Source: Boothiomyces macroporosus (Eukaryota > Chytridiomycota > Chytridiomycetes > Rhizophydiales > Terramycetaceae). Taken from it: 64,000 nt of DNA. The notes beneath the pieces are model-generated. The model ran no database searches. It was not told where the DNA came from and saw only the letters and a program-made list of their open reading frames with translations. The translations under genes and the position numbers were made by a program. The stretch covers positions 1-64,000 of the forward strand of contig JADGKB010000066.1 of assembly GCA_027604185.1 (NCBI GenBank), in the 5' to 3' direction. This document shows, in pieces, positions 4,681 through 56,090 of the stretch. The number at the start of each line of letters is the position of its first letter. Within the stretch, counting starts at the first letter, position 1.

Positions 4681-6231
4681 CTAGTCAATATGAATCTCCA
4701 CCTCGTCCACAGGGATAACTTTTAGCTCTTTGGGAAATATAGATTGATTGTCTTGTCCACTTGATTTTTCTACTTTTAGAGACTCTCTGGACAGTTCATA
4801 TGATAAGTTCGATTTCATTTGAGCACCCTCAAAAGAGAAATCACTTTCGGACCAGAGATTAGCCCTTGCCAGTTTTGATTTTAGTAAATCTGCATCCATT
4901 CTCGCGGCAAGTGGGCTTTTTGCTCTTTGGAATGGCTTATTTTCCTTCTTTTCTAGAACTGTGGAATTAGTATTTATTCGAAGTCTTGGCCCGTCCGACA
5001 CTGACCGATTTCTACCCAGTTTGTATTCAGGAGGCTTCACTTCAGATGTGCATTCTTTCATTTCAATGATCTTTGATCCTAGGTCTTGGCTGGTCTTGGC
5101 GCTAACCGAGTTTAAAGACGTTTTTGTTGGGTCTTGCAAGGAACTCCTCCTTTGAGTGTAATCGTGAAACTGATATTTCCTTCCTGGGGGATAATTGAAA
5201 CTCTGGTTTTTTCTTACTGCTGGTTTACATAGCTTTGGTCTGTCAAAATCAGCATCTTTGAGAAATAAATCATCCAACTTGACAGGCACTTTTTTCGGTT
5301 GCGAAGACTGTGAAGAGTTTATTGAACTGGCAGAGCTTTTACTGTTTTCAATAGAGCTATTTTTGAATTTGGTGTTATCTAGGGAATGGTTGAGGAATTC
5401 AATTGGATAAAAGTTTGCGCTTAGTGATTTCACCTCTTTGGATTTGGCAGGTACAGGGAAAGCAGGTTTAGCTTTTGTTGGACATGGGGCAGCACCAAAT
5501 ATCAGTGACTGTCCTCTTTTTATTCGGTTTTCCAAGAGTTGCCTTGAAGTAAATCTAATCAATGGAAACTTACCTCATGCGTTTAATCTGCTCAAAGCAA
5601 AAAGGAAACAACAAAATCCAAATATTCTGAGCAAGGTAGCCATATATAACCCCACTTGAATCATTGGTGAATATAAAAGAGATCCAAAAGTAGCAGCATA
5701 CCAGAACTAGCATGGATAATGTTGGTATCAAGCAAAAAACGCGTTTACTGCACAAGTGATAGTCCTTTGGTTGTACTTTTGGATCAGTTATTGTAACTGT
5801 CATGAATATAGGTATAATAAATTGAAATATAGCTGTTAAAAGCAGCGAGACAGTTGTTACGAAAGGATACATCTAATTTAAAATCGGTTTACACTTGGTG
5901 TGAGAAAGAATATTGAGGTAATACAACCTACTTTAAACAGGAAATCCAATATTTGTATTGATAATCCATATTTGAATCCTGCTAGTTTAAGGAATGGTCG
6001 CATCAGGTATAACAGTACCATGTCTATCACCAAGGAGCATATTGGAATAGCTTGCAAACTCGAAATGCCATTTGCTATCAAAACGTTTGTAATGATATGA
6101 GGAAAAGACATGATTATGTAGCAAATCTGCGAATAAGATACTACAGACACAAAATTCCATACTAAATATCCGCAAAAAGTCGCAAGTGGAACAACAAAAG
6201 CAATTGAAATGATCTGTACAACTAAAAACAT
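4681..6231 (-). CDS. Seven-transmembrane protein with long cytosolic tail (GPCR-like)
   Basis: Exons on the minus strand: 6231-5893, 5872-5574, 5554-4681; 503 residues. Introns are 5873-5892 (GTAAACCGATTTTAAATTAG, 20 nt) and 5555-5573 (GTAAGTTTCCATTGATTAG, 19 nt). For the second, a 31-nt alternative ending 12 nt downstream is also in frame. The joined product has seven hydrophobic segments in the first ~210 residues, then a Ser/Lys-rich hydrophilic tail of ~290 residues. The topology fits a G-protein-coupled receptor, but I recognise no diagnostic family motif, so the function is inference. The start is the first ATG (6229-6231) that leaves the first membrane segment intact. A second 7TM gene lies at 47606-48633. 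Confidence 0.68.
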
Positions 6232-6956
6232 TTGCAAAGAATCTAATAGCAACCGTCATCTTTGCTGACGTAATGCAAGCTTAAGGCTGCAGTTTTGAGA
6301 ATGAGGTTGACAGTTTTTCCGGATATTATTAACTCATTCTATTTATGGACCAACTGTAGCGAGAAAATGGCATTATAACTATATATTTGTGGGTAATATA
6401 CAACAACGTACATTTAATGATTGAACGCGTAGCTCTTATCAGGCAAATTTCTATTTTATGGCTCCTCACTCAACTGAATGAATATTCTCCACAATATTGA
6501 GACCCTATCCACTGTTTTTGAACGGGAATATCGGTCGACTTGCTTCATTTCAAACAGAAAGAATCTAACCACTTTCAAAATTCAATAAAGAATATTTTGT
6601 CTGGTTACTGGGTTTGCTTTGTAAAAAGACTATGAGTTTAATTGGAAAATGAAACCAGCTTGTTAAAAGGTATTATCAACCAGCTTGTTTGATGCTCCTC
6701 CAATTCTTGATACGGAGGGATAACTTTGTTTCCTTTGTTTTCACCGATACATATTGGAGACCTTGGTTTCTAGTGAGGTGTAGATAATTGCTATTAAATA
6801 TTCTCCATTTTCGGCAGAGCTGCGCAACTAATTTTTCTACTCTGAAATCTTGATTTTACATTTCTCACGTGATATCGGAGATTTTTTTTGATTGGACCAC
6901 ATTCGTTCAAGAGAAAAAGAAATTTTTTGCAGGTGAACAGAATTTCTTTACATTAA
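6232..6956. other. Non-coding interval between divergent genes
   Basis: About 725 bp between the divergent starts of the 7TM gene and RPS9. I see no ORF with recognisable content and no tRNA-like box. It presumably holds both promoters; a poly-T run lies near 6885-6895, close to the RPS9 start. Confidence 0.5.
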
Positions 6957-7541
6957 ATGCCAAAGGTCAACTGTAGCAAAACCTACAAGGTTCCAAGAAG
7001 AGCATACGGAGCAGAACGTCTTGACACAGAACTCAAACTCGCCGGTGAATTCGGTTTAAAAAACAAGCATGAAATCTGGAGAGTTCAATATACTCTTTCC
7101 AACTTGCGTCGTGCTGCTCGTGAACTTTTAACTCTTGACGATAAAGACCCTCGTCGTTTGTTCGAAGGTAACGCTTTGATTCGTCGTTTAATCCGTACTG
7201 GAATTTTGGATGAAGAAAAGGCAAAATTGGATTATGTTTTGGGATTAAAAATTGAAGATTTATTGGAAAGAAGATTGCAAACTCAAGTTTTCAAATTGGG
7301 ATTAGCAAAGTCAGTTCACCATGCCCGTGTATTGATCCGTCAACGTCACATTCGGTAACTTGCAACTAATTATAGTGTTGGAAAGCAAATCGTTGATATT
7401 CCATCATTCATTGTTCGTTTAGATTCTCAAAAACATATTGATTTCGCTCTTACTTCTCCATACGGTGGTGGCAGACCAGGTCGTGTAAAGCGCAAGCGTG
7501 CTGCAGCAGCAGGTGGTGATGATGCTGAAGATGAAGAATAA
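6957..7541 (+). CDS. RPS9: 40S ribosomal protein S9 (uS4)
   Basis: Two exons, 6957-7354 and 7376-7541, encode 187 residues. The 21-nt intron 7355-7375 starts GTAACT and ends TTATAG; removing it joins RQRHIR to [20 protein letters not shown] exactly as in other eukaryotic S9 proteins. The S4 RNA-binding core ([20 protein letters not shown]) and the basic tail [12 protein letters not shown] are intact. The length matches the family. The protein binds 18S rRNA in the small-subunit body and affects decoding accuracy. Unspliced, the frame meets TAA at the 5' splice site. Confidence 0.97.
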
Positions 7542-7593
7542 ATGATTTATCTGTAATAAAAATATCATCTCTTTATTTTTTTTGTTTTTTTGA

Positions 7594-8181: not shown

Positions 8182-8705
8182 ATGCCACACTCTTTTGGTA
8201 TCTAGCAATTAATAATAGGTCTTCGTGCTCGTACCCGCCATTTGTTTTCTAGGGATTTCCGCCAAAAGGGTTCCATCCCACTTTCAACTTACTTGAAGAA
8301 CTACAAAGTTGGAGATATCGTTGATATTAAAGCAAACGGTGCTGTCCACAAGGGTATGCCTCACAAATACTACCATGGGTAATTAAAAGTTAATGTAGCA
8401 AAACCGGAATCATTTACAACGTTACCAAGTCATCAGTTGGAATTATCGTTCACAAAATCGTTGGTTCACGCTATATCGAAAAGAGAGTCAATATTAGAGT
8501 TGAACACATCAAGCACTCCAACTGCCGTCTTGAATTCTTGGAACGTGTAAAAGCCAACAGAGCAAAGAAGGAAGAAGCAAAGTCAAAGGGAGAATCATTC
8601 AACTTGAAACGTATTCCTGTTCAACCAAGAACCGCTCACACTGTTTCCGCAGTTGACAATGCTCCAATTAATATCAGCCCTGTTCCATATGAAGCCTTGG
8701 TTTAA
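8182..8705 (+). CDS. RPL21: 60S ribosomal protein L21 (eL21)
   Basis: Three exons, 8182-8197, 8219-8378 and 8399-8705, encode 160 residues, the same length as yeast Rpl21. Intron 1 is 21 nt (8198-8218, GTATCT...ATAATAG) and intron 2 is 20 nt (GTAATTAAAAGTTAATGTAG, 8379-8398). The first exon encodes only MPHSF plus one base, like the very short first exon common in fungal RP genes. Diagnostic stretches: [51 protein letters not shown]. It is a structural protein of the large ribosomal subunit. Confidence 0.97.
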
Positions 8706-10611: not shown

Positions 10612-12271
10612 ATGCCAACCATCCCCATATGTATACTAGGGATTGATAAAGTACATTAATCTTAAACACATAGACAAGAGGCGATTTAGGGTATAAGCTT
10701 ATATCTGAAATCATTGCTAGTAGAAAACAACTCTCCCAAAAAGATGTAGCCATTGCGATCACTGGGTGTTGCGATACCATCGGATCAATTTCTCCAACAG
10801 TACCCGTTATTAATATAGACACGTATCGGGTATGAACAGTTCAAAGAACAAGGTGGATTTCAAGTGGATGTATTAAAGGAAGTCGTTCGCATTAAGGAAA
10901 TTGGAGATAATTTGATCAGAGAGGATGGATATAATCAACACCCAGATGCGTTCTTGAAAGCATTTGTCGGTCAATGTGCTCAACCTGGGATGGTTATTGT
11001 TGATATGATGCCAAAATCTCATGAATCTCAAACACTTTCAGCATTACGGGCAGCTAGCTCCTTGGGTGCGAGCGTTTTATTATTGTTTCCACGGCCTGCA
11101 GAGTTCAAGTAATCCTTCTTAAACCATCAGGCAAGAGTGTATCAAACTGTTTGGCGAGGAAAGGGTAAGCATTAGCACAAAGCTTCCGACAGTCAAGAAA
11201 TTGATTTATATGATTATAGATTCATATAATGCCAATCCAGCAAAAGAGCGACCTATTCCTGAAAATCTAGTGGTTGGCTTGAGGAAAGGGCATGTGCATG
11301 GACCAAACTGCAGACATGATTTTGAGCACTCTGTCACTCCTAAACCTGCGAGTCAACAGCACCATCATGGGCCGAATTGCAACCATTCTCACCCAGAGCC
11401 TGTCCAACAACATATCCACGGTTCGAATTGCAACCATTCTCAGCCGGAACCAAAGCATGTACATGGGCCAAATTGCTCTCACGATAATCCGGTGAGTTTT
11501 ACGAAATCTAATCACTCAAACTTACATGATTCTGGACACGGAGGACATTCTCACGATCACTCTCATGGAGGACATTCTCACGATCACCCTCATGGAGATG
11601 AGCATGTGCATGGCGAAAACTGCAATCATAGAGACCCTCAGGAAGAACTTTTAGTTCAGCAAAATATGAAATTAATCGTGCAAGATTTTCCTACAGCTCA
11701 CAAGGAATTGAAGAATGGAAACATAGGTGTGGTGTTGGCAATTATTGAACTGATTATGATGGGCAAACCTCCTGAAACTTTGAAATTCCCACATAATGAT
11801 TTCGCTGATGGATTTGGAGTATTCTTTGTTAGGAAAAATATCATGGGCGACTTGATTAGCTTGGCAAATGAAGCCATTCACGGAGAATCAACTGATGTCT
11901 ACCCAATTATGGATGCAATCGTGGACCTGCTTTACATTGCGTATATAGATGACAGAGTTCTTGATCAATTTGAAGCAACAGGAGGAATAGAGCTGCTCAG
12001 AGGTTCAACACAATTTCCTGGTTCTGATATCATAAAGTCAAATGATCCGTACTTGTCTGAAATTGGTGAAGCGCTTATTACCCAATTGAAACAATTTTCT
12101 CGCTACAAAAGACTGTGTAATTATTGCAAAAAGAGGGAGGATAAGCAAGCTGCTTTCAAGTTGTGCGTTCGCTGCAAGTAATGATTGAGCTAACGTAGAT
12201 TTAACTGTTATTGCAGCAGAGAATGTCAAGTTGAAGATTGGAAAACACACAAAACCGTTTGCAAAGCTTAA
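10612..12271 (+). CDS. His/Cys-repeat protein with C-terminal MYND zinc finger
   Basis: Five exons: 10612-10650, 10674-10799, 10819-11108, 11131-12177, 12199-12271; 524 residues. Introns are 23, 19, 22 and 21 nt. The N-terminal ~200 residues form an alpha/beta-looking region of unknown family (for example VAIAITGCCDTIGS). Next come five HxHGxNCxH repeats (HVHGPNCRH, HHHGPNCNH, HIHGSNCNH, HVHGPNCSH, HVHGENCNH) mixed with HSHDHSH runs, probably metal-binding. The C-terminus is a MYND finger: CNYCKK, then CVRCKFNCYCSRECQVEDW and HKTVC. The last intron lies inside the finger; splicing 21 nt (12178-12198) restores the canonical YCSxxCQ. MYND domains usually bind proline-rich partners; the role here is unknown. 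Confidence 0.82.
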
Positions 12272-14497: not shown

Positions 14498-15515
14498 TTA
14501 TTGTTTAGCTTGTCTGACTTTTAATAAAATGAGGATCCATTGGGCATTGTTGAAGAGCTCTTCCTTGAATGCAAAAAGGAAGGCAGCAGTCAAAACAGAC
14601 TGGAGCAACTTGGATTCAATGCCTTTGTAGAACCCTTTGACTCCTTCCTTTTTGAAAATCTTTTGGAACCCATCAAGAAGAGAGTTGTAGCGTGTGCTTT
14701 CATCTTGAGAGTCTTTCAAGTGCATACGAGATTTGACGACGATATATGGATAAGTGATTGAGGTAGCGCATAGTTTTGAAACTATAATTAAGGATTATTA
14801 CCAGCCCCCAACAAGAAGAAATGGAATGCGGTTAATTCCTTTACAGACTTTTCTACCCAAGCCTTTAATTTCTCAAATACAGTGTATTGAATCACAGGGT
14901 TGGCAACCAATACCAGTGCTGGTAAAATACCTCTCCAGAATCCGACTAATCCTTCTTCTTTGTAGATTTTTAGAGCGGCTTCCTTCATTCCAATTTTGGT
15001 CTTTCCAGCTTCGGCATCCTTGACCAACAAACGAGTCTAAATTTAAGCTACACAGATACATTAATAACCCAGATGGGGTTGGTCAAGACGGAAGTAATAC
15101 TACCCGCAATTGCACCAGTAATCATATTTTCTGCAATTGAAATAGCCTCTCCGGCAGCTAATTTGGCTTCAAATCCGGCTTTTACCAACTCATACCTACG
15201 TCAGCTAAATATTACCAGTAATAATAGATTGCTTGAGTAACGGCAATTCCAAACATAGCAGATTTCAAACCTCTAAATTTAGAATAACCTACGCATATAG
15301 TCCTTGGACACCTTCTTCCTTGAGAATGCGTTTCGCAGCTTGCAGCTGGCTGGTTTTTGTTTCCTTCGAGTCAACTTGAGAGCGTGTGGAAACAGTGATT
15401 AAAGGATAGGTGAGAGCCATACTGTGATCAGATTCATCTTACCTCAACATACCACCTCCGGCACCTATATTAAATATTATGTACCAGCTAAAGCATGAAC
15501 AACGCTGTCAGACAT
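14498..15515 (-). CDS. Peroxisomal adenine nucleotide carrier (PMP47/SLC25A17 type)
   Basis: Seven exons (minus strand): 15515-15485, 15464-15443, 15421-15293, 15272-15216, 15195-15060, 15036-14802, 14781-14498; 297 residues. Six introns of 20, 21, 20, 20, 23 and 20 nt. The spliced product has three mitochondrial-carrier repeats: TYPLITVSTRSQ, NPIWVINTRLLV and TYPYIVVKSRM. The second motif plus GFWRGILPALVLVANPVIQY and KGIESKLLQSVLTAA identify the PMP47/ANT1 branch, which exchanges ATP for AMP across the peroxisomal membrane to activate fatty acids for beta-oxidation. Length fits the family (~300 aa). No unspliced frame exceeds 80 codons, so ordinary ORF finding would miss it. Confidence 0.92.
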
Positions 15516-25943: not shown

Positions 25944-25990
25944 ACAAATATTGATTATTATTCTATTTTCTATATTAAACAAGATCTTTT

Positions 25991-28012
25991 TCAGGAATGC
26001 AAAGGAACACCGATCCAGGCTTGGAGAGAGCTATGGTACTTGTAAGAACGGAACTGCCCTGCTTTCCACCATGGCGCATCTACATCTAAAAGTGCTTTGT
26101 AATTATTTGGTCTCCAAGTAGGTATTCCCTCAAAACTAGTTCTAACAAGTGGGAATATATCACTGAACGTGTATGGCGAGCCACTCTTGTCTTTGACTTG
26201 CCCGTCAATATTCGATACACCTCTAATTTCAATGGAAACCCCAGAAGTGGTATTTACAAACTTTGCATCGATAGCGTTGTTACTTTGATTAGTTCTGATG
26301 ACAAAGTGAGGGTTTAGTTGCACTTCCAAATCACCCATTTTCAAACTAGGAATGTTCAAAAGCTGGTAAAACACGTTTGCGTGTGTATGGACAGTTAGTT
26401 TTTTGCTCCATGGCAATGCTCTGCTTCCAAAATGCATCCCAGCTAATGTTTCACGGGAGATCCAATAAGGGAATTGAAGAGCATCAGCCCAGATCGCAAA
26501 TGCTCTAAACAATTCTGTCAATTCTGCTCCGATAGGAATACCAACACTTTTTTCATTGAAAAAAGCCTTGTCTTGCTGAAGTTGATTTGCCAAGTCTGTG
26601 TCTACCGTCCAAATCACTGCCAAAGAAGATTCTTCAGCGTACAACAGAGTCCCAGGTTTGACATTGTATGGATAATCTGGTGTAATTTTCTCAAGTTCAG
26701 TAAGTCCCAAAGAAGTAGAAGTGGGCTGCTTGGGGGTAAAGGTTAGGGTGTAATTGAATTCGGGGTATTTCGCAAAGGTGAACGGCTCCTTGAAAACTTC
26801 TTTTCCCAACACAGTCTTGGTAGCCTTTTGGGGCTTTTCTTGGGAGAATTCTTTTTTTGGTTTAGAACTAGCTACTTTATCCCAATTTCCTGTTTGATCA
26901 TTGAATCTGTAGTTCTAAAATTACCAATAATTTACCTTGTACGTATTCTTGTTTTTGTACTCCTTGTTCAGTAGCTGTAGCACTTTGTTTGGTCTCCAAG
27001 TTGGCACGCCTTCATAAGTGGTTCGAACTAGCGGAAATAGCGCATCATAAGAGTAGATGTGCGGAGATTTGCACATGATCCGGCCTCTTACGTTGCTGAC
27101 ACCAGTAATATCTATGAAATGCCCGTTATCCATATCAATAAATCTGGCATCAATGACATTTCTGGCTTGTTTAACTCTAACGACATGGTTAGGATTCACT
27201 TCTAGTAAATACTAAAATCAATAACAAAGTACCTTTCCAAATATTAAAGTATCGTGATATTGTTCCAAATCAAAAAGGTTATTGGACAACACTTGAATAT
27301 CCATATCGTCATCAAACGGCATAGTCTTGCCACCCCAATACCATCCCAACAAAGTTCCATGCATGATCCAATATGGAATCTCTACCATATCACTAAACTC
27401 TGCCCAGGCTCTAAACAAGTCATGAATAGCATTCAGGCTTTGATTCTTTGGTAAAAATACCCCGAATCTAGCGTCCAAATGCTGATGCTTTGGAGCTTCT
27501 CTAAAAAACTTGCTGTCCTTGTTGCGCTTTAGATTCCTAGGGGATTGATCAAGAGATAATTTTGAGGGAGTCAAGGTAGACACCAATCCGATTTTGTAAG
27601 GATAATCAACAGGGTTTTCTTTCAACTCCCACTTTGATAAATCAACATTCTCTTTAGGTTGAATAGTAAACTTGGTTTCACAATCCGGTCCGCAACCAGC
27701 AAGCGTAAATGAAGATTGGTATTTTGGCAATGGCTTTGATTCATGCTGGATTTCTCTTCTGTGAAATTCATACTTGTTTTGCTTTTCCTGAACTTGTTCC
27801 TCTTTATTCTTTTGTAATGCCTTTGCAGTTTCCACAAGTTCACTAGTCTTGCTGAGAGTGTATTTCGGTTCCAAAGGCTCATTTGGTTGAATGAGTGGTT
27901 GCTGAACCGACAGTGCTTCCAGGGGAATGTCAACATTTCCGCCGTTACTGTACCATAGAAAGGCTAATATTACAATGATTGACAGTAGTAGTACCTGCCT
28001 GGACCGTCGCAT
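25991..28012 (-). CDS. Double-LicD fusion: active LicD domain plus degenerate LicD pseudoenzyme
   Basis: Exons (minus) 28012-27233, 27211-26936, 26914-25991; 659 residues; two 21-nt introns. Residues 1-360 are a complete paralogue: signal anchor 8-20, stem AGCGPDCETKF, WIMHGTLLGW and MPFDDDMDIQV (231-241), ending NYRFNDQTGNW. The frame runs straight on through a short Lys/Gln linker into a second LicD copy (~385-659). There the catalytic motifs are lost: WISRETLAGM replaces WIMHGTLLGW, and LPWSKKLTV replaces MPFDDDIDV, so no metal-binding Asp remains. Yet RTSFEGIPTWRPNNYKALL is conserved. The stem cysteines of copy 2 are also gone. I infer a regulatory or substrate-binding pseudo-domain. Confidence 0.85.
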
Positions 28013-29548: not shown

Positions 29549-30191
29549 CTACATTAAAACACACTTTTTGGTTTTTTTCTTGATTTCAGGAGGAATTAAA
29601 ACAGCGCGGATGGCTTCGTCAAACACATTCTTGAGACCTTTTTGAGTCAAAGCGGAACATTCGAGGTATTTGACTGCATTAATTTCCTTCATCATTTGCG
29701 TTCCTTGTGGATAAGTAATTGGTGCCATTCTCTTTTCTCGTAGTTTTTCAATAGTGTCCCTGTCTTCTCTCAAATCGAGTTTGGTTCCTACAAGGATGCT
29801 TGGTGTAGAAGGAGCATGATGGGATATTTCTGGGAACCACTACATTAGCAAGACTTACTTTTGTTCTAACGTTCTCGAATGATGGTGGTGATACTAGCGA
29901 AAAGCAAATCAAAAATACGTCGGTTTGAGGGTAAGAAAGTGGACGTAGACGATCATAATCTTCTTGACCTGCTGTATCCCATAATCCTAAATTGATTGGC
30001 TTTCCATCAACCATTACATTAGCGGAATAATTGTCAAATCTATTGTAAATTATTTGGATTACACTGTAGGAATGTATTCACCAGGGAACGCATTTGTGGT
30101 GTAACTAATTAATAAGCATGTTTTCCCGACGGCACTAGACGTTAATATGCGCTTACCCATCACCGACAACTACACATTTTATAGCTTGCAT
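29549..30191 (-). CDS. RAC1: Rac-type Rho GTPase
   Basis: Four exons (minus): 30191-30157, 30134-30063, 30039-29859, 29839-29549; 192 residues, the same length as human Rac1. Introns 22, 23 and 19 nt (the last GTAAGTCTTGCTAATGTAG). P-loop [11 protein letters not shown] is split by the first intron; effector loop [13 protein letters not shown] by the second; [26 protein letters not shown] and ECSALTQKG are all present. The C-terminus [10 protein letters not shown] is a polybasic CaaX box; terminal Met predicts farnesylation rather than the geranylgeranylation usual for Rac. It controls actin, polarity and NADPH oxidase signalling at the plasma membrane. Confidence 0.95.
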
Positions 30192-30493: not shown

Positions 30494-33104
30494 TTAGTGT
30501 AAAACAAATTCTACGAGACACTGAGCGTACATTATCCTATCTTCCAAACTTTCCCATCCTTCTTTGACGACAGTTTTCAGCCCTTCTGCATCCAGGTTAT
30601 GGACCAAGTCTCCATGGATCTTTAAATAGGCACATAGAATGGCATTTACAAATTCATAGTCTGTCTTCTTTTCCAACAGTTCTTGAATGTGTGATATGAA
30701 TCTAGAATGTACTTTCAAGTCAATTTCAACTGGCAGTTGACGCAACTCCAGATCTATCTGGCTAGGAGACAGGTTCATTAGATGGTGGAGCAAATCACTA
30801 CTGCTCTTGTTCAGGATTAGGTTTGATAATTCTGTTTGATTGGTTGACATTAATTCTTTTGGTAATATTTTAGACTCAATCTGTGGTGCTTCAAACGTGG
30901 GAATGCTACCGCTAATAGTGGGCAAGAAGAATGGTGCCTTTTCTGGCTGTTTAGGTGGTTCAATTGGCTTGTTTCGTTCCTGATATTAATGAAAAAGTAC
31001 CTTGATTGAATCCAAATTCAGCAAGTTTTGCCATCGAGATTTTGGAAGAGCACTAAATGTAATCATACCTTCCTCAACAGGAATATATTCTTCATCCGGC
31101 ACTATTTCTGGCTCTGAGCTTTCTTCATCTTCCAATGATACACCATTGGTGGTTGGAAGCAACAAGGAAGCAACATCATCGCCCGAAATACTCTTGAGCG
31201 GAATATGAGTGTATTGAGATTTGTTTGCCCACAAGAATATGCCAACATGGCCGACGTGAGTTGTTGCAATAAAATCGCCAATTGGGGAAAATGAGAGAGA
31301 GGTACAAATTTGTTCAGTCTTGAATACATCAATCAAGAATCCAGTTGGTAAATCCCAAGTTCTAATTGTAGTGTCCAAACTGGAACTAACCAGCCAGCGT
31401 CCATCTGGTGAAAAGTCCAGACAAGTAATTCTGTTACTGTGCCCGACAAACTCTCTCACGATTTTGAATGTATCTATGTCAACCACCCTGATAATTCGGT
31501 CATCAGTAACAACCGCCAGCAATCTGCTTTCGTTGTGTAGTTTAAAGAATGAAATTGAGCTTTCCAAATCAATACTGCTTAGCAAAGTGGACTTGTTGAA
31601 ATCCCAAAACTGAATTAGGAGGATAATACCTTTAGTTTATGATCCAAAGAAGCAGAAATCAAGATTTTGTTTACGTTGTCCGACCCTAAACAGGTAATCG
31701 CGCTGTCATGAGCCTGTATAGTCTGTCTAAAAAGACCACTCTGGATATTGTACTTGTCAATATTTCCTTGAGATGTGGCCAAGAAACAAAAGTTACCGCA
31801 AGCACTGATCAATACCGCTTTGATTGCAGAGTTATCTTTTGCAGACAATACATGCTTTCCAATTGCTTTTCTTTGGAAGCTCCAGGTTCTGGCTTTAGAA
31901 TCTCCAGAATGGCAAGTTACAATGTTATCCCACTCTTTTTGTTTCATTTCATCTATCGTTAAAATTCATATACTGGAATCAAACTGAATTATATTTGGTA
32001 GTCGGAGATTATTCAAACTTGTCTTGAATTGCTTTGATTTCTTTTCCAAAGATCCTTGAGACAATTCGGTATTTTGAGAATCCCTGATGATAGAAAACAG
32101 ACGTAAAGATTGATCTTGGCCGCTGGATAAAATGTAATGGCCAAGTTGATCATAGTATTTGATGCTGGAAGGAGGTTTAAAATGGCCTGATCTTGACTTA
32201 AGTAGTCTTGGGGTTCCGTCTAAACTGTCAAATATCCATTGCTTGATTGAGTTATCACTTCCAGCGGTAACTAATAATGGCATTCCATTAAAGAAAAAGC
32301 AAGTATGAATACTAGACAAATGGCAATTTGTCATCAAATGTACAAGTCTTTTTTCACCAAGATCCCATAGTGCCAAGTCGCCAGCCATGGAGCCTGTAGC
32401 CATAATAGTTTGGCCATCGGTACGGAATGAAATTGAAGTGACTTTTCCTTCCTGGTTGAAGCGCATGATTTCTTTATCCATTTTAATATTGTGCAGGATA
32501 ATAGTCCCATCTAGGAGACCAAACGCAATAACATCAATAGACGGAGATTGAGTCATGCAAGTTACCGGACTGTTGAATTTAAACTCGTACAATTTAGATA
32601 CTGTTCTGATGTTCCACAGTTGAACTTTGTTGTCGAATACCAACAAAATCTTGTTTAAATAAGTCGATGGATGTAACAAATGAGTAACTGGCTCCCCAAT
32701 TTCAATTTCATTTTGATATTCGCTCGTAATATAATTGTAAATATAAATACCAGATTCATGAGCTGCAATACAAAAGTCTCCAAATACCATCAACTCTAGT
32801 ATTTGCGATTCAGTATCTATGGTGCTAATGATTTTCTGTCTGTTGTAAATGATTATTTTTGTATCCGCTGAAACGATAGTATAATCCTTGATGGACTGAA
32901 TACTAGTGATGGTTGAATCTATTGAATCACCGACAATCAACAAAGACATTTTTTCACCCTAGGATTAATGTTGGTTACATCTAGAATTTGAAATGAAGAC
33001 CCAATCGAAGAAGTAATGAAATAGTGCTGACCGCGAGCTTGAATTGCCAACGGAATGGAGCCTGTGATGTAACCAAGAGCTCTAAATGGTGCAAACAATC
33101 CCAT
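30494..33104 (-). CDS. UTP21: U3 snoRNP WD40 protein UTP21 (WDR36)
   Basis: Five exons (minus): 33104-32979, 32958-31974, 31952-31630, 31609-31001, 30979-30494; 842 residues. Introns 20, 21, 20 and 21 nt. The N-terminus GLFAPFRALGYITG is typical of Utp21. Two stretches of WD repeats follow, including HSNRITCLDFSPDGRWLVSS and DTTIRTWDLPTGFLID, and the C-terminal Utp21 domain ends in a helical region (LEKKTDYEFVNAILCAYLKI). It is part of the small-subunit processome that processes 18S pre-rRNA in the nucleolus. Starts only 58 bp from the divergent OB-fold gene, so the two likely share a promoter. Confidence 0.93.
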
Positions 33105-33841: not shown

Positions 33842-34309
33842 TTAAAACAAAGCAGCGCCGCCAGCTTCAACGATTTGTTGAGCGATACGGTCCAAATCCT
33901 TTTGTCCATCAGCAGAGATTTGTCTTCCACTACAATTAATGATAATTTACCCGTTTGGATCAGCTTCAAGTACAGAAATCTTTTCAAGAGCTTGGACTAC
34001 TTTGCGGGCAACACTTCCACTTCCGTCTCTGTGCTTGGATGGGCGGACACCTCTGTTGACGGATCCACCATAGTTCTTTTTCAAACCACCGATACCGGTA
34101 CCCTTTCTAAGGTAAATGTGACGAGCAATTGAAGCAGCTCTGACATAGAACCAATCTGGATCATATGGAGCAAGGTCCTTGTGTGGTCCAGTCTTGACAA
34201 GGTCAACCCACTTTGGAACTTCCAAACGACCAGTTCTCTTCAAGTAAGCAGAGTATGCTTTAACGAATGCTTGTGCTGAAACGTCCTTTACTGTAACTCC
34301 AGAACCCAT
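33842..34309 (-). CDS. RPS19: 40S ribosomal protein S19 (eS19)
   Basis: Exons 34309-33951 and 33929-33842; 148 residues. The 21-nt intron (33930-33950, GTAAAT...AATTGTAG) joins LEADPNG to GRQISADGQKDLDRIAQQIV, the normal S19 C-terminus. Other diagnostic stretches: TVKDVSAQAFVKAYSAYLKR, PYDPDWFYVRAASIARHIYL, GVRPSKHRDGSGSVARK. Structural protein of the 40S head, needed for 3'-end maturation of 18S rRNA. The unspliced frame meets TAA at the intron start. Confidence 0.97.
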
Positions 34310-34769: not shown

Positions 34770-37061
34770 ATGACTATCGAATTACTATCCGCTCTTCGTA
34801 ACCGCTTGGTATACTTGCCATACTCTTCTCAAGAAAAGACTGACTTGGCGCTGTCAATTTTGAATGGAATGAAAGTTTACGTCAATCGCGAATCCAAAAT
34901 CAATCATCATTCAGCTGAATATCCTGATATTGATCCAATTCCAAGAGCTCAGTTATTATTCGAAGAAGCGCACTTGCTTTCGGACAATGAATTCCATTCC
35001 AAAGCACTGGATTTGTTTTTCTCGCTCCGAGATTTACAGTAAACATCAATTAACGATAGCACTACCTACAATAGGCCAGGTACTTTTTGCAACACAGTTA
35101 TTACTACTGCTTTAGTCTTTGAGCTTATTGATTCCGACGATTTAATTCGAAACCCACGAGTAGTTGTATCTGGATTCAGTAGCTACAAGAAAGTCTTTGC
35201 TCTCTCTCCTGTGGACGGAATTTCACTTGGAGATGAGCTATTAAGTGTAAATGGATTATCATTCAAACAGTTTTATGAAGCGAATAAGTGGAAGACTGGA
35301 GGAGCTAACGAATATGGAGGAATGAGAAGAGCGCTCACATACTTGGTGGAACGAAAACTTGGACGCACTCCAGTCCCAGACGCAGATGTAATGGAATACT
35401 CGTTGAAGCGACCTGATGGGGCAATCTACACTGTCCAGCTTCCATGGTTTGCTCGATACGATCCAAAGGATTTTGAAACCTGTAATCAAATATTCCAAGA
35501 GTTGGAGTTACCATTATTAGAGTTTACTAGTGAACAAGACGAAATGATAAATGAATCCAAAGTTGAATCTTCTGGATTTAAGCTATCCGACACTTCAGTT
35601 AAGCAAATTAAATGGGGGATATATAAACCAGATACTTTCAACATGGGTGTAATTGCAATCGAAGATTTTACATTTAGAGGGGATCTTGGCAGAAACTTGA
35701 TAATCAATTTATTACAAACAGAACTAAAGGATACCAATTGCTTATTAATCGACTTGAGGAATAATGGTGGTGGAAATGGGTATATTTCCGGTATCCTTGT
35801 AAAACTTTTGAAGGGTGGTTTTGTAAAAGTGCACCAGTGTAGAGTTATGGCAAATGAAATATCACAAACCTTCCTGTCCAGTCAATATCCTGATGCCAAG
35901 TGGAAAGATGCTACTCTATGTTCTCCAATTGATATGATGGGTCAACCTGATGAAGGACAAGAGTATTTCAAACCTGCTGGTTTGTTTACAAATGCCGCAT
36001 GCTATTCAGCCTGTGAATCTGTTTGCTCAACACTTCAGAATAATGATGCTGTAATAGTGTTTGGTGAAGATGGTCAAACTGGAGGTGGTGCAGCTAGGAA
36101 ACTAGACGATAGGTATTTGAGCCAATTCCAAGATTTCACTGCGATGCCTTATAGTAAAAATTACCCATCAGTTAGTGGAAGATTCTTCATAGGTATACAT
36201 CAAACTGTCAGGAGTGGCAAATACGCTGGTCAAACTTGGGAGGATGATGGTGTCAAATCAGATTATATCTTCCGTCCAAAAAAAGGTGATATTATTAAAA
36301 GAAACAATTATGCCAGGTATGAAGATATTGCAAAGATCCTGAATCAAGTATCTATCGACAAGAACCTGTTTGGAGTTTCATTTTCTACCGTTCCTTCAGG
36401 TTCGTTAACTACAGAATTGGAAAAAGATGTAATATATGAAGTAGAAGTGAGTGGAATATCGAATTTGGTGATCAAAAAGGGCACTAAAGTATTACACACT
36501 TACAATATCGAACCAGTGGAAGTCAAAAAGAAACTCAAGGTTACAATCAAAGAGCACAATATTAAACCAGGCTATTACGACTACAATTTCATTGGTTTGA
36601 ATTCTAAAGGAGATAAGGTGATTGATTCTGTTAGGAAAGTGCGATTCGTTCCTAAAACAAATGGTTTGGTATGTGTAGACAACTTTTTCGTTGAAAATCA
36701 AAGCGAGTCAGAAAGCAATCCATTAGCACAATGGAAGGTTGCTGGTTCTGGTTGGGCAGTTGGCCCCAAATTATTCAACAACTGCAACACATCACTTGTC
36801 TTGCTAGCCAACCCTTCAGATTCGGTAGTCTTAAAGTTGAAATACACACTTAACTGTGAAGCCTTGTTTAAAATATCTGTTATCGACCAAGAACAAACCA
36901 AGTGCCTGAAATTCACTGATGATCCAATTGATGCTGAGGAAGAATATTGGTTTACTCCGATAGGCAAATGGGAATTGCGAATTGATTTCTGTTGTTGGGA
37001 AAATAACAAAGATGCATTCATGGCGATCCAGTATTTAGATATTCGTACCGTTTCTGAATAA
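34770..37061 (+). CDS. S41-family peptidase-like protein
   Basis: Exons 34770-35038 and 35060-37061; 756 residues; 21-nt intron 35039-35059. A PDZ-like segment (SPVDGISLGDELLSVNG) precedes the peptidase core: CLLIDLRNNGGGNGYISG, then a probable nucleophile region TNAACYSACES near residue 400, and FGEDGQTGGGAA, where other S41 enzymes carry the catalytic dyad partner region. The C-terminal ~250 residues look like two beta-sandwich domains. No signal peptide is seen, so a cytosolic role is possible. Similar long S41 proteins are common in fungi. Family call is firm; activity is inference. Confidence 0.72.
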
Positions 37062-37941: not shown

Positions 37942-38741
37942 TTATAAAGTAACATCTTTGGACAAATCAACTCCATCCAAATGGGTATTAGTCATCTTGA
38001 ACCTAGAATTCTTTTTCTTTTTCTTTTTACCAGAAGCAGTAGCAATATTCCTCTTTTGTAAATCAACTTGCATTGCTTTCAACCCAGCTTTGTCCAGCTC
38101 TTTAAGTAAATCTATTTTCGACGGTACTTGAATATCATGCTGAGTTAGTATAGGTTACCCATTGCTGTTTGAATTCATCATCTATATCTATCGAAGAGTC
38201 CTTGTAGTATATAAACAGTGGAGAGTTGTCCTTTAGACTCCTGACACAGAATATTTGTTTTTCATTGTAGAGCTCTTCAATCAGCGGCACTACTCCTCCA
38301 TATGAATTTTGTAATTCTTTGACTTCCATTGCACAAATGTTCTTGTTTTTTTTAACCAGGGCCAGCAAATCTTGCTTTGTTTTAATATTGTAAGCAGGCT
38401 ACATTAACATCAAATACTTTGAATTCAAACTTTCCATTTTCGTATTTGATTCGATCATTTTCCAGTACTTTTTTAAACAGCTCTTCGGTCCCTTCAACAT
38501 CTATTGCTGTTTTTCTAATCAATTCCTTATTGTCAATTGGGTGTAACTCATTCTTTAGACACTGTATAACTTCAAAAAGCTGTCTTCCAATTGGTACGGT
38601 TTGGTTTGAATACAAGACGGGAGTGATTTGCTTTGTGGGAAGAACATAGTCGTTATGCGGCTGAGATAAATCTTGCTTTTTTATTATTGGCTGATTCAGC
38701 TGCTGTCTTCTAAAGTTTGCCTGTTGTTTTTCAAAAGACAT
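37942..38741 (-). CDS. TFA2: Transcription initiation factor IIE subunit beta
   Basis: Three exons (minus): 38741-38418, 38398-38159, 38139-37942; 253 residues. Both introns are 19 nt (GTATTTGATGTTAATGTAG and GTAACCTATACTAACTCAG). Splicing gives FEFKPAYNIKTKQDLLALV, the second winged-helix entry of TFIIE-beta, and WHDIQVPSKIDLLKELDKAG, the conserved C-terminal helix, followed by a basic run GKKKKKKNSRFKM. TFIIE-beta pairs with TFIIE-alpha to recruit and regulate TFIIH at RNA polymerase II promoters. Length is close to other fungi. Confidence 0.9.
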
Positions 38742-38973: not shown

Positions 38974-39349
38974 TTACATTGCATTCTTGTTTGCATAAAC
39001 CTATTATTAAAAAGAAATACTTTTTCAACAGCTTGTCTAGGAGTGAAAATCTCTTCAGCATCACGATCGCTAATTTCAATATTGAATTCATCTTCAAGAG
39101 CCATTGTAATTTCAACTTGATCGAGTGAATCTAATCCGAGATCGTTCACAAAGTGGGCATCCAAAGCAAGCTAATTTAGAACGAAAATACTTTTTGTTGT
39201 TGAACTTTGTCAAAGTCTTTCAAGAGGTTGAGGACTCTGTCTTCGATATCTTGGATTGTGAGTGGAGGTGGTCCGGCGGAAAAGTATCTGAATGAAAGTG
39301 GTTTAATTAGTGTTGGTTTGAATGAAATTCTTTTAACAAGTCTGAACAT
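38974..39349 (-). CDS. ACP1: Mitochondrial acyl carrier protein
   Basis: Three exons (minus): 39349-39191, 39170-39021, 39000-38974; 111 residues. Introns 20 nt each (GTATTTTCGTTCTAAATTAG and GTATTTCTTTTTAATAATAG). A basic mitochondrial presequence ([12 protein letters not shown]) is followed by the ACP four-helix core; the phosphopantetheine serine is in [11 protein letters not shown], then [16 protein letters not shown]. After the second intron the product ends [11 protein letters not shown]. It carries acyl chains for type II fatty-acid and lipoate synthesis and is a subunit of complex I and of the LYR/iron-sulfur machinery in the matrix. Confidence 0.93.
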
Positions 39350-47583: not shown

Positions 47584-47605
47584 AAAAATAAATCGTAATC
47601 TTTAT

Positions 47606-49935: not shown

Positions 49936-50025
49936 TTAGTAAAGAATCTCAATTAGGCGCAGTGGGCTGATGAACCATCTAAAAGGAAAGGTGATAGAAA
50001 TGGTTTATTGCTAAAATAATGTGGT

Positions 50026-51741: not shown

Positions 51742-52037
51742 TGCCTGGAAATAAAGTTGGGAAAAGCAAGAAAAAATGGTGGCAACACATCCTTGGATTT
51801 CTAAATCAGGAAGGAGTTAGATTGATAATACTCTTTGATCTCCATATCCGCATCTCGTACAGTGAAACGAGTGTAGTCTCTAACTTTTTATGCCCAAGAA
51901 AATGTCTTATGTAATCGTCTATCTCCAGAGTTCTTTCCAACTAAAGGTTAATAGAAAAGATAAATTAAAACGAGAAATGAAATGTATAGCAAAGTGGAAG
52001 CGTTTACTCCCTCTTGCGGATAACAGATACCAGACGT

Positions 52038-53552
52038 TTATTCAAAGAAAAATTCCAACTTTTGGTTTTTAGGTATGCTAAACGGAAGTAGGCGAACAGC
52101 TCTATCTACTAACGTTTGGTCCATCAGACATCCTTTAAATTTGGCAGTACTCAAATTTGACTTTTTAACAGCAGCGGCAAACGTTAGGATATCATCAACA
52201 TCTATATCTGGATTAAATGAAAAATCCACATAGGCTAATTTGGATTTGGCTATCCCAGTTTGAAGTATTGTCAAAATTTGTGGAGATAGATTGGCATGGG
52301 TAATGGACAGGGAAGAGAAATTAGTCGTCCTAAGTGATTCTGAAAATAATGTCGCTGCCTCGATAGAAAGCTGGATATTGGAAAGTTCCAGGTATTGATC
52401 ATCAGCGATCCTTTTTGACGCCAGCATTGCAAGAAATTTCCCGTCATTCAGAATTACATTGGTAAATGATTTGATTTGTAAAGAATAAGCTGAATTGATT
52501 GTACGATTAGGAGTTGATCTTGCAAACATATTTACAACATTTTTCCTATCCCTTATACACTTTGTGAAACACTCAAATGCTAATTCCGGACTACCTTCAA
52601 ACCAAATTTCCCAAAAATTGAAAACTCGTCCACTAATTGTTTCATCTAACAACCAATTCCAATTATCTTGCTCTATATACACCCCTATTCTGTTTCTGAA
52701 TTCATTTGAGCGGTCAGAGTAAGGCAATTTGTCAACATATAGTTCTCCTAGACCACTTTTCAGCTTATCATAAAATCTAGTAAATAGAAATGCCTTCGTA
52801 GTATCCAGTGTTTCAATTAAATGAATTAGTGAAGCTGATTGGAATAAACCAACATCAATTATCTGTAAATTCGGAAACAAATTCTTTTCTGGAAAACGCG
52901 GTAAAAGAAAGTCTTCAAAAAAGTCTCCACCATGAAATCCGATGAGTTTGATTGACTTTAGTCTAGCGCTGAAATCCTTGTTAAAGAATACTTGTAGTGG
53001 TAGGTGCCGGGTGAGCTGTATTGCCAGATATTCGATTCTTGAATGTTCTAAAACCTGAGAAAGTAGGTCCCAAGAACCACTTGGCATAACCCCCTGTAGT
53101 TTAATGTGCGTCAATGAATCCAACTGAAATTTCCTCTCGAATAACCCAATCTGTTCTAAAAATTCTAATTGCAGCTCCAATCCTGTAACTTTAGATAAAT
53201 TGAACGACAGTCGATCCAATTCATTCTTATTGATGAGAAATAACTCGAACGTAGGTGGTAGATCCTTTTCCAATGCAATGAATCGATCAATTGGAATGAT
53301 AATCTTTTTAAACTGAAACTTGAATCCCGATGTTTGATATGCTTTGATTGCGGCACTTTCTCCTTGTCGAAGATCCAGTATCGGCCATATACACTCTGTG
53401 GGTGTCTGACCAACCATCTTGCCAAATGCAGAGAGTAAATCGTCCTTGGCTGTAAATGACAACTGTAGCATTTCCCTTGTATTTAAATGGTGAAAGACAA
53501 TTTGTAGGACATCGAATGGCAAATCTTGCACTAGCATATTTGAATGGGGCAT
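52038..53552 (-). CDS. F-box/LRR protein, divergent
   Basis: Single exon, 504 residues. F-box LPFDVLQIVFHHLNTREMLQ at residues ~12-31. The LRR region is more degenerate than in its neighbours; recognisable repeats lie in the last 130 residues (ISVEAATLF-like, FSSLSITHANLSPQILTILQ, YVDFSFNPDIDVDDILTFAA). It lacks the ILGD tail of the other members. Possibly a fast-evolving receptor. Confidence 0.77.
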   Translation of the reverse strand: MPHSNMLVQDLPFDVLQIVFHHLNTREMLQLSFTAKDDLLSAFGKMVGQTPTECIWPILDLRQGESAAIKAYQTSGFKFQFKKIIIPIDRFIALEKDLPPTFELFLINKNELDRLSFNLSKVTGLELQLEFLEQIGLFERKFQLDSLTHIKLQGVMPSGSWDLLSQVLEHSRIEYLAIQLTRHLPLQVFFNKDFSARLKSIKLIGFHGGDFFEDFLLPRFPEKNLFPNLQIIDVGLFQSASLIHLIETLDTTKAFLFTRFYDKLKSGLGELYVDKLPYSDRSNEFRNRIGVYIEQDNWNWLLDETISGRVFNFWEIWFEGSPELAFECFTKCIRDRKNVVNMFARSTPNRTINSAYSLQIKSFTNVILNDGKFLAMLASKRIADDQYLELSNIQLSIEAATLFSESLRTTNFSSLSITHANLSPQILTILQTGIAKSKLAYVDFSFNPDIDVDDILTFAAAVKKSNLSTAKFKGCLMDQTLVDRAVRLLPFSIPKNQKLEFFFE

Positions 53553-53634
53553 GATTTTTCGAAAAGCACGAAATTTGAATTGTACTCGTGGCGTTAAATA
53601 GGATGAACTACAAATAACCCAAAAGTCTGGGTGA

Positions 53635-54492
53635 TTAATTTATTGATAAATTTACAATTCCCGGAATAGAATAGAAATTGTCGCTTCCATAGTCCTGAAC
53701 CCTAGGATCTTCAAGAAGGACTTTGACTACTTTAAAGTGCTTGTTGAGTGAAGCATACCGTACTGCAAATTGGTTATCCGCGCTTGGGTCCACTCGAGGA
53801 TCTTTTAATAGCAATTTGACAATATCCAAATGTCCGTTTTTAGCTGCCATTCTAATTGGGCAGTTGTTTGAGACTGCAGGATCTACCCGGCTATCATTCA
53901 ACAAAAGTTCTAGCATATCGAGATATCCATTGTACGCTGCTGCTGTTATTGCACGATTACGCGCATAAGTTGGGTCAACTAGTGGAGATTGCAATAAATA
54001 CTTTGCAGAGAGATAATAACCGAGGAAACAACTTCTAAGGAATACAAAATCCCTATTTTCTAGCTGTGCCAAATCTAAACTTTGCAATACCATTAGACTG
54101 GCCTCGTCTCCTAATTTGGTTTGTAAGATATATGATTTAGTTTTGCAAGACACAAGATTCCAATCGATTCTTTCCAGTTCCTTATATTGCCGCAAATGAG
54201 CTAATTGAAGAGCGGTGTAATCCCAGTCATTGACTACTCGGTTCAATTTCATATACATTGAATAGTCTACCGCGGAATACTTTTCCAGTGATTTCTGATA
54301 AAGCCAGTCTTTGGCATCAATCGCCCGTATGGGATCGTATGGCCAATCCCCATAAATAGACTGGAAATAATATATGGAGTTGATTGTTGGAACAAATGCA
54401 AGTGTTGATTGAAATGCAAAATAGAGCAAATAATATTCATGTAAAGTCAAGTAGTTTGATATTAGTAAAAGCTCGTTTTCTATCCTGTTCAT
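53635..54492 (-). CDS. F-box-like/ankyrin-repeat protein
   Basis: Single exon, 285 residues from the first ATG (54490-54492). An N-terminal F-box-like helix region (RIENELLLISNYLTLHEYYL) is followed by a middle helical segment and four ankyrin repeats carrying the VDP signature: SPLVDPTYARN, DSRVDPAVSNNCPIRMAAKN, DPRVDPSADNQFAVRYAS and DPRVQ. Each repeat has GHLDIVKLLL-type helices. Ankyrin proteins of this VDP type are abundant in chytrids. Probably another adaptor that swaps LRRs for ankyrins. Confidence 0.72.
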   Translation of the reverse strand: MNRIENELLLISNYLTLHEYYLLYFAFQSTLAFVPTINSIYYFQSIYGDWPYDPIRAIDAKDWLYQKSLEKYSAVDYSMYMKLNRVVNDWDYTALQLAHLRQYKELERIDWNLVSCKTKSYILQTKLGDEASLMVLQSLDLAQLENRDFVFLRSCFLGYYLSAKYLLQSPLVDPTYARNRAITAAAYNGYLDMLELLLNDSRVDPAVSNNCPIRMAAKNGHLDIVKLLLKDPRVDPSADNQFAVRYASLNKHFKVVKVLLEDPRVQDYGSDNFYSIPGIVNLSIN

Positions 54493-54636
54493 TTGAAGGG
54501 AAAAATGAAAAAGTGTGGCCACTGATTAACCCAACACTGAATCAAAATACCTAGAGTATAGTGCGTATAAAGCGACAAGAACACTCCAGAATTCAGACTA
54601 ACGCGTGAAAACAAACAAACCGTGTTTACTTTTCTC

Positions 54637-56090
54637 ATGAACAAACTGCAAGGAATTGGATCAACATCTCTTTATGGATTCACTCCAGCAATTAATTTGA
54701 TTGATAAAACCCCGCAAGGACCTGTCAACATCCTACTAGCAAATACTAGTGATATTCGACACGTTTATCCAACCATTGCAGCAAACCCGCAATCTGAAAT
54801 CAATTTCTATATAATAGAGCCGCAATCGACAGTCAACTGCCGCAACTTGTTGCTTTTTAATCTCTTTGTGACTGAAGATGAAATATCTGTACAAGGTACA
54901 TAGTATTAACCCAGAACAAGTGGAAATGTTTCTCGATCTATACAATAATACCTCAATCAGCGAGCGCACTTTTGACTACATTATCAGCGCTTCCAAATCA
55001 CTCATCAAAACCATCACAGATAGCAAAGGGATCCTTCACGACATGATATCTCTATCATATCTGAAATATCGCGAAAGAGACGATTTGGAATTTGTTTTAA
55101 AGTTTTACCTTTCAAAACCATTTGAAGTTTCTACTCTATGGGATACCAGATTACGAACTTTGTTGCGTTCAAGGTACGATTCAAGGGACAATGTGTTTGA
55201 CTGGGACTACAATATGAAGCTTTTAGATTCAGATCCAAGGAAAAAGTATATACACAAGAAACAGTATTGTAAGTGGAGAAATACAGGGTCTTGGTATTTG
55301 CTCCGATCTAATCAAACCAAAGTAAATAAAACTATGGCTACAGTGGATATAATGAAAATCGATGGAGTAGGTGTAGCCAAGTATGGTGTATTCAGCGATA
55401 TAGTACTAGGACCATTTCAATGTTTTGGCATTGAAACTGAAAACCAAAAACTGCTCAAGCTGGAAAATGATAGACCTACTCAAGTAATATCCACTAATCT
55501 AGACTGTTCAAGAAATTATGGAATGGAACATCAGAGATTGGATTTGTAAAACGAGGGGAATTTCTGTTGTTGGTAAATTGTTTTTAAATGTTGAACCTGA
55601 AGAAAAGATTGTGGAGGAAAAGAGTGGGGAAATGAATGATGAAAAGATTGTGGAAATAACGGGTGAGATGGAAGCGAATAAAATAGCTGAAAATGAAATT
55701 GGCCCAGAAAATGGCACTGTTGATCAACCAGAATCAATTCCACTTGAAGATAATTCGATTGCCCTTCAAAACCAAGAACAGGGAACCACACAGTACAACA
55801 AACCACCAGTAAAGCTGCATCTTCTTCCTTGCGATCCAGCGGCTACATTCAACAAACCGAAAACACTAAAATTTGACGTAATTTATCTTGGTTCCAGTAT
55901 CGCCCATAGGCTGCAAGATGTAAACAAAATCAAAAAAGGAGATTCCAAGGTCTATGTAGAGTTGATCGATGGTGTGTTTGAAATCGGTAAAGAAGAAAGA
56001 AAAATGTACAAGGACAAGATAATTGATATTGGCAAGGCACAAGGGTTGAACATTGTGAAAGAAACAAAAGATTATCTTTTATTCCAATAA
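54637..56090 (+). CDS. DNAAF3: Dynein axonemal assembly factor 3 (PF22)
   Basis: Three exons: 54637-54895, 54915-55482, 55502-56090; 471 residues; two 19-nt introns (GTACATAGTATTAACCCAG and GTAATATCCACTAATCTAG). Diagnostic stretches match human DNAAF3: LYGFTPAINL, NILLANTSDIRHVYPTIA, KYRERDDLEFVLKFYLS, LWDTRLRTLLRSRYDSRDNV, FDWDYNMKLLD, WRNTGSWYLL. The protein pre-assembles axonemal dyneins in the cytoplasm before transport into the flagellum. Its presence shows that the organism builds motile flagella. An acidic, Glu-rich insert lies before the last conserved block. Confidence 0.93.

Follow-up and report, generated by a model that had tools for sequence, protein, structure and literature searches.

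Are the genes of a chytrid fungus interrupted throughout by spliceosomal introns of only about 20 nt? This question is raised by a 64,000-nt stretch of the genome of Boothiomyces macroporosus (Chytridiomycota, Rhizophydiales, Terramycetaceae; assembly GCA_027604185.1, contig JADGKB010000066.1, positions 1 to 64,000), hereafter the window, in which a first-pass annotation had rebuilt 42 introns in 20 genes, all but one of them 19-23 nt long. We analyzed the window together with 29 other stretches of the assembly (15,203,306 bases in 216 contigs); all introns reported here are predicted from sequence and protein continuity. The results suggest, with a probability of roughly 0.94, that these are U2-type spliceosomal introns, which would have contracted throughout the part of the genome sampled to a tight lower limit near 20 nt. 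This estimate excludes a further step involving the splicing factor ISY1, which is weighed separately below.

The other stretches comprised 20 of 10 kb on contigs C1-C20 and nine shorter loci around Ras-like, U1, and U2 matches; together with the window they make up 1.9% of the 15.2-Mb assembly and form a non-random sample. A flat-prior gene finder (Viterbi decoding of codons versus background, with GT..AG introns of every length from 12 to 150 nt costing the same) placed 128 of 260 introns at 19-23 nt and none at either 18 or 24 nt in 294,067 non-overlapping bases. GT-AG ends are required by this finder, yet six control dinucleotide pairs gave no such peak, with 9, 10, 11, 13, 15, and 21 introns at 19-23 nt out of 198-232, compared to 130 of 265 in the matching GT..AG run. 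A test without any gene model, which counts deletions of 19-23 nt that join two long open reading frames, yielded 76 cases for GTA...TAG and 30 for GTA...CAG, while five control triplet pairs yielded 1, 2, 4, 6, and 7. At 41-60 nt, the same test gave 27 cases for GTA...TAG and no excess over the controls (6-42). The uniform length that had been read from the window is thus borne out by the flat-prior peak, which the control pairs lack, and by the gene-model-free test. Loci L004 and L008 partly overlap L001 and L006; they are included in the control-pair and gene-model-free counts and, below, in the intron phases, the in-frame stops, the flat-prior counts of T[AG]A[CT] and of longer introns, the branch motif search, the T content, the correlation over 337 of 490 introns, and the tandem scan, and are excluded from the counts of 260, 432, and 477 introns.

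Protein continuity provides a second line of evidence. Homologues are ungapped at the junctions in RPS9, RPL21, RPS19, and Rac, where they are solved structures, and in UTP21. The spliced UTP21 is identical to the deposited B. macroporosus UTP21 except for 15 residues missing from the latter, which fit a 66-nt GT..AG alternative in the sequence. Deposited UTP21 proteins are ungapped across four of four junctions in Terramyces and three of four in B. macroporosus. These data bear on the possibility that the introns are a gene-finding artefact, in which weak coding models and the common letters GT and AG generate short spurious introns. False introns do arise with our predictor, as detailed below, but the peak is lacking with control letter pairs in both the finder and the gene-model-free test, homologues continue without gaps, and the deposited UTP21 implies three of the four introns as placed here. 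An artefact is therefore very improbable.

We then obtained a refined set with splice-site and length models trained on the same data; unlike the flat-prior result, it depends on the length model built into it. Its 128 models (score of at least 30, none overlapping a better model) contain 432 introns, 382 of which are 19-23 nt long (62 of 19 nt, 152 of 20 nt, 90 of 21 nt, 56 of 22 nt, and 22 of 23 nt). Introns number about 2 per kb of coding sequence, and 23 of the models lack one. The tiny introns occur in all three phases, and 99 of 118 introns of 18, 21, or 24 nt hold an in-frame stop, a kind of intron that the finder favours. Because they are present in the stretches on contigs C1-C20, in the window, and in the nine shorter loci, they are not a feature of one region. 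If the sample, which was not designed as such, is representative, the genome total would be on the order of 20,000 tiny introns.

Three observations weigh against a uniform class of spliceosomal introns. First, 50 of the 432 refined calls fall outside 19-23 nt, and some of these are probably real. Second, the predictor makes false introns, namely those in the antisense models w06, w25, and w27, at 8231-8252 in RPL21, and in a wrong 22-nt call in ISY1. Third, the U1 match scores 68.8 bits, just below the Rfam cut-off of 69.5. Longer introns do exist, as exemplified by a 46-nt intron in ISY1 whose splicing yields the residues found in the deposited protein of a sister species. A large second class of longer introns was considered and rejected: after cleaning, the flat-prior set held 112 introns outside 19-23 nt (overlapping loci included), of which 9 scored above the 25th percentile of 120 tiny ones, compared to 1.7% of random sites, and several of these nine contain a nested tiny intron by eye. 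By this measure, longer introns account for below about a tenth of all introns.

The tiny introns have the usual parts, i.e. a GTA start, a branch motif yTnAy, a tail of 5-6 nt, and a TAG or CAG end, with AG/GTAATTT as extended 5' site consensus. For branch analysis, we used the 477 introns of 18-24 nt from all refined models. GTA starts 423 of them, and the statement that all GT introns begin with GTA was too strict also in the window (45 of 48); TAG ends 292 and CAG 112. The branch motif comes from an expectation-maximization search, in which five seeds led to two solutions and the better-scoring one was used. The branch position is an A in 459 of 477 introns, this A occupies one of positions 14-16 in 420, and the tail after it is 5 or 6 nt in 414; these figures depend on a splice-site model for which the same introns served as training set. 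The segment from the 5' site to the branch and the tail are uncorrelated (r = 0.03 for the 337 strongest of 490 introns, overlapping loci included). In the flat-prior set, which involves no splice-site model, T[AG]A[CT] was found near the 3' end in 81 of the 101 introns measuring 19-21 nt and in 20 of the 29 measuring 22-24 nt; the longer length classes gave 2 of 11, 8 of 23, 13 of 48, and 15 of 44. T makes up 39% of the letters between position 7 and the branch motif. The compression into about 20 nt is hence as the first-pass annotation described it, with the exception of the polypyrimidine region, for which there is no space between branch point and 3' site.

Two pairs of introns abut without an exon between them (L003 913-958, minus strand, 23 + 23 nt; L010 8930-8969, plus strand, 20 + 20 nt) and show AG/GT in the middle, as in recursive splicing. 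A signal-only scan detected two tandem introns compared to none in reversed sequence, and 154 compared to 45 single signals. In the ISY1 gene, two canonical 20-nt introns lie 1 nucleotide apart (L035 1259-1299) and would need successive splicing; the deposited ISY1 of the sister species implies one longer intron at this position.

The splicing parts examined were U1, U2, U6, SF1, U2AF65, Slu7, Prp18, Cwc25, and ISY1. The same genome encodes a U1 with ACUUACCU, a U2 with GUAGUA (L029 and L030), and a U6 with ACAGAGA (reverse strand). A spliceosomal type, as proposed initially, is supported by the GT-AG ends, the branch motif, the use of all phases, and these pairing segments, and its fungal setting by the UTP21 match to the deposited B. 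macroporosus protein. In SF1, the helix-hairpin, the KH domain, and the zinc knuckles are all present. For U2AF65, there are matches to human U2AF65 in the solved RNA-binding pair and in the C-terminal domain, and the N-terminal region matches a solved piece of S. pombe U2AF59 that we take to be the partner-binding part. Slu7 and Prp18 were both found, and Cwc25 retains its glycine plug MGGGDLNLKKSWHP. Since yeast is said to need Slu7 and Prp18 less when the branch point lies near the 3' site, their loss was a fair guess. However, the presence of all four proteins rules out loss of SF1, U2AF65, Slu7, or Prp18 as explanation. Matching losses had also been anticipated in U1, U2, SF1, and U2AF and were not found for U1, U2, SF1, and U2AF65; among the factors examined, the sole change found, judged by sequence, is in ISY1.

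One 21-nt intron of the Slu7 gene (L045 1838-1858) contains no in-frame stop and would be read through by annotation based on open reading frames. The predictor removes it; the shorter product presumably agrees with Slu7 homologues. The Cwc25 loci L032 and L033 (contigs C49 and C100) are identical over 3,111 bases, and equal-score matches recur at C20:74242 and C20:119309 and at C3:197847 and C3:219464. Such recurring loci would be either duplications or haplotypes that the assembly left uncollapsed.

In splicing, U1 would pair with the 5' site and the GUAGUA of U2 with the branch motif, and recognition would proceed by intron definition. As a polypyrimidine tract does not fit into the tail, any contact with U2AF65 might be taken over by the U-rich stretch that precedes the branch point. 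Branching would then form a lariat loop of 14-16 nt, and the 3' site would be the YAG 5-6 nt past the branch point. Alternatively, the segments could be removed from the DNA, like the internal eliminated sequences of ciliates, or be bypassed by the ribosome instead of being spliced from RNA. Short eliminated sequences in ciliates are reportedly also rather uniform in length. Nevertheless, the GT-AG ends, a yTnAy motif whose spacing is fixed, and U1, U2, and U6 of conventional type argue for splicing, and programmed DNA elimination of such kind is not known in fungi; removal from DNA or bypass is hence hardly credible.

We turned to ISY1, which in both B. macroporosus and the deposited protein of Boothiomyces sp. 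JEL0838 starts with MAPKTLAQKQE instead of MARNxEKAxSMLxRFR. Unsplit MARN or MSRN codons were not found on the same strand in the first 1.3 kb of the ISY1 locus. Among 327 matching proteins, 120 ISY1 relatives were listed; MxRNxEKA stands at the start of 69 of them and slightly later in 2, 28 begin inside the motif, and 21 do neither. By eye, most of these 21 begin late, are fragmentary, or show a variant of the motif such as MARNQERA, and six are full-looking yet have a different N-terminus, namely those of Boothiomyces, Globomyces, Kappamyces, and Gorgonomyces, all of which belong to the Rhizophydiales, and two metagenome proteins. Globomyces ISY1 retains HRFRE, a remnant of the motif. In the same order, ISY1 of Batrachochytrium salamandrivorans begins inside the motif and therefore has kept at least its second half.

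A comparable ISY1 change is known from the ciliate Stentor coeruleus. Stentor introns are 15-16 nt long, with a 10-11 nt loop and no strong branch consensus; in the text available, the Cwc25 plug motif is given as missing, Slu7 and Prp18 as not detected, and the ISY1 N-terminus as not conserved (PMC9505925). Both organisms share uniform tiny introns, a GTA start, conserved U1/U2/U6 motifs, and the non-conserved ISY1 N-terminus, and the tail after the branch A is 5 nt in Stentor and 5-6 nt in the chytrid (PMC9505925). Unlike Stentor, as far as described there, the chytrid has introns of 19-23 nt, a 14-16 nt loop, a clear yTnAy, Cwc25 with its plug, Slu7, and Prp18 (PMC9505925). Because it retains the latter three, it shares only the ISY1 change with Stentor among the factors compared.

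It is conceivable, though we consider it rather unlikely, that the ISY1 N-terminus sets the minimal lariat loop, and that heterotrich ciliates and Rhizophydiales independently eroded this N-terminus and could thereafter shorten their introns to the lower limit; the chytrid would have done so without losing U2AF65, SF1, Slu7, Prp18, or the Cwc25 plug. If this is true, the chytrid case separates the effect of ISY1 from that of other factors. This proposal is weakened by several facts: the link is a correlation, Cwc25 is normal in contrast to Stentor with its changed plug, Slu7 and Prp18, which were not found in Stentor, are present, and among chytrids with divergent ISY1 the intron sizes come from Boothiomyces alone. 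With about even odds, the machine may instead be fully conventional, in which case canonical spliceosomes tolerate loops of 14-16 nt and the ISY1 change is unrelated drift. This would be a variant within the preferred explanation and not a competitor of it. It fits that most factors examined are ordinary and that yeast reportedly does not require ISY1, and also that the Cwc25 plug, changed in Stentor in the part of PMC9505925 available, is intact here. On the other hand, 71 of the 120 listed relatives carry the motif and 28 begin inside it, and among the 21 others the six that are full-looking but different include the four named Rhizophydiales.

Uniform ultrashort introns are already known from nucleomorphs, heterotrich ciliates, and mikrocytids, with slightly longer ones in Paramecium and dicyemids. 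The accessible text of PMC4035089 gives about a thousand introns per genome for the chlorarachniophyte nucleomorphs of Bigelowiella, Gymnochlora, and Lotharella, 18-24 nt long, with 19 nt the commonest length and mostly GT-AG ends. They resemble the chytrid introns in tiny size, narrow range, and ends (PMC4035089), but a nucleomorph is the 0.37-0.61 Mb remnant of an algal nucleus housed in another cell, whereas here a 15.2-Mb fungal assembly contains small nuclear RNAs and splicing factors. Mikrocytos mackini, an obligate parasite in which 17-19 spliceosomal proteins were found, has 224 introns of 16-17 nt in 179 genes (PMC10245619, in part). Its introns likewise occupy a narrow range at the short extreme; the chytrid has about 2 per kb of coding sequence. 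The introns of dicyemids, which are animal parasites, average 26.2 nt in a sample of 16 and are, as in the chytrid, short and uniform in an opisthokont (PMC2222250, in part). The comparison with nucleomorphs and ciliates made initially was thus apt, and mikrocytids and dicyemids belong to it as well.

Among fungi, Malassezia is described as having 'very short introns', with no lengths stated in the text available (PMC7426719), and a survey of 644 fungal genomes calls Cryptococcus introns, with a mean of 63 bp, relatively short; neither 'shortest' nor 'short intron' appears in the part of that survey that was available (PMC8476143). The accessible parts of PMC13391722 and PMC5364385 give no intron lengths. 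In the literature searched, which covers few subscription journals, we found no description of ultrashort introns in Boothiomyces or any chytrid, nor an article on the present genome. What is unusual here is the kingdom, the density, and the machinery, which is conventional as far as examined. The tiny-intron genomes that we found described are those of relict nuclei, parasites, or ciliates. The chytrid is saprotrophic and free-living. A fungus, like yeast, in which each kb of coding sequence holds about two 20-nt introns and the machinery is conventional as far as examined lets one ask directly which part limits intron length; B. macroporosus is therefore a promising organism for studying how short introns can be.

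Traces of the tiny introns are also visible in deposited gene models. The deposited B. macroporosus acyl-CoA dehydrogenase contains GRLCLIL, which is the in-frame reading of the 21-nt intron GTAGATTATGTTTAATATTAG and is absent from 12 other aligned deposited dehydrogenase sequences; it additionally omits a whole 48-nt exon between two tiny introns. In Terramyces, the deposited Rac lacks the four residues VRTK just before the acceptor of intron 29840..29858, and at a tiny-intron position within a variable region its dehydrogenase carries seven additional residues. Globomyces UTP21 shows a long gap that ends at most one residue from a tiny-intron acceptor and a further ten-residue gap that matches no Boothiomyces intron, and a Kappamyces dehydrogenase contains five additional residues that lie no more than one residue away from a tiny-intron position. 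No such mark is seen in the aligned dehydrogenases of Globomyces, Gorgonomyces, and other Boothiomyces. These are hints, not measurements, that relatives may share the tiny introns, with Terramyces best supported. As deposited models of the species, and apparently of relatives too, add or lose residues at tiny introns, annotation needs a lower minimum intron length.

In the window itself, 48 of the 54 predicted introns kept between 5555 and 55502 are 19-23 nt long and lie in 20 genes (14 of 19 nt, 16 of 20 nt, 11 of 21 nt, 4 of 22 nt, and 3 of 23 nt). The histogram is nearly that of the 42 introns reported initially, while the single 39-nt intron of that report was not identified. The six other kept introns measure 24, 65, 109, 125, 131, and 147 nt; we take the five of 65-147 nt, as a judgement on the group and not on each singly, for gene-merging errors. 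Before counting, 7 of 37 gene models that were antisense, overlapping, or doubtful (w00, w06, w11, w18, w21, w25, and w27) were set aside together with intron 8231-8252. This removed 18 calls of 19-23 nt (3 in w06, 2 in w11, 6 each in w25 and w27, and 8231-8252). The latter is probably false because the exon after intron 8198..8218 reads by eye as what we take to be typical eL21. Both ends of the interval lie within predicted introns (5555-5573 and 55484-55502).

Table 1. Predicted tiny introns of the window and the evidence for each.
Gene	Intron	Position	Strand	Length (nt)	Evidence
RPS9 (6957-7541)		7355..7375	+	21	best PDB uS4 chain ungapped across VLIRQRHI^RVGKQ
RPL21	near 5' end; start codon of gene not settled	8198..8218	+	21	gene finder
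RPL21		8379..8398	+	20	solved eL21 chain ungapped across HKYYH^GKTG
RPS19 (33842-34309)		33930..33950	-	21	eS19 ungapped across EADPN^GGRQ
Rac GTPase (29549-30254)		30135..30156	-	22	Rac1 ungapped at junction
Rac GTPase		30040..30062	-	23	Rac1 ungapped
Rac GTPase		29840..29858	-	19	Rac1 ungapped
UTP21 (30494-33104)	1	32959..32978	-	20	deposited B. macroporosus and Terramyces proteins continuous
UTP21	2	31953..31973	-	21	Terramyces protein continuous; deposited B. macroporosus drops 15 residues before acceptor
UTP21	3	31610..31629	-	20	deposited proteins continuous
UTP21	4	30980..31000	-	21	deposited proteins continuous
Mitochondrial carrier, PMP47-like (14498-15515)	1 of 6	15465..15484	-	20	gene finder
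Mitochondrial carrier	2	15422..15442	-	21	gene finder
Mitochondrial carrier	3	15273..15292	-	20	gene finder
Mitochondrial carrier	4	15196..15215	-	20	gene finder
Mitochondrial carrier	5	15037..15059	-	23	gene finder
Mitochondrial carrier	6	14782..14801	-	20	gene finder
TFIIE-beta (37942-38741)		38399..38417	-	19	gene finder
TFIIE-beta		38140..38158	-	19	gene finder
Acyl carrier protein		39171..39190	-	20	gene finder
Acyl carrier protein		39001..39020	-	20	gene finder
Putative DNAAF3 homologue (54637-56090)		54896..54914	+	19	gene finder
Putative DNAAF3 homologue		55484..55502	+	19	gene finder
Gene 3024-6111	low end of interval	5555..5573	-	19	ab initio only
Gene 3024-6111		5873..5892	-	20	ab initio only
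Gene 10612-12302		10651..10673	+	23	ab initio only
Gene 10612-12302		10800..10818	+	19	ab initio only
Gene 10612-12302		11109..11130	+	22	ab initio only
Gene 34770-37061		35039..35059	+	21	ab initio only
LicD-like gene (25991-28012)		27212..27232	-	21	ab initio; similar gene 21992-22982 matches LicD
LicD-like gene (25991-28012)		26915..26935	-	21	ab initio only

Several spliced products in Table 1 match Pfam families: the carrier gene encodes three Mito_carr stretches, TFIIE-beta matches TFIIE_beta, TFA2_Winged_2, and TFA2_E-tether, and the acyl carrier protein matches PP-binding. The product of gene 54637-56090 matches DUF4470 and DUF4471; the name DNAAF3 was given by the first-pass annotation. 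Beyond the genes supported by homologues or Pfam, the remaining window introns are ab initio predictions only. Scans of the window for tRNA genes and Rfam families gave no matches.

Two runs of similar genes were additionally seen in the window. A cluster at 20684-29219 surrounds a LicD-family protein (Pfam match at 21992-22982), with neighbours that look alike by eye. A second run of look-alike genes, also recognized by eye, spans 45994-61320; one of them, scanned in part (49064-51741), contains leucine-rich repeats and an F-box.

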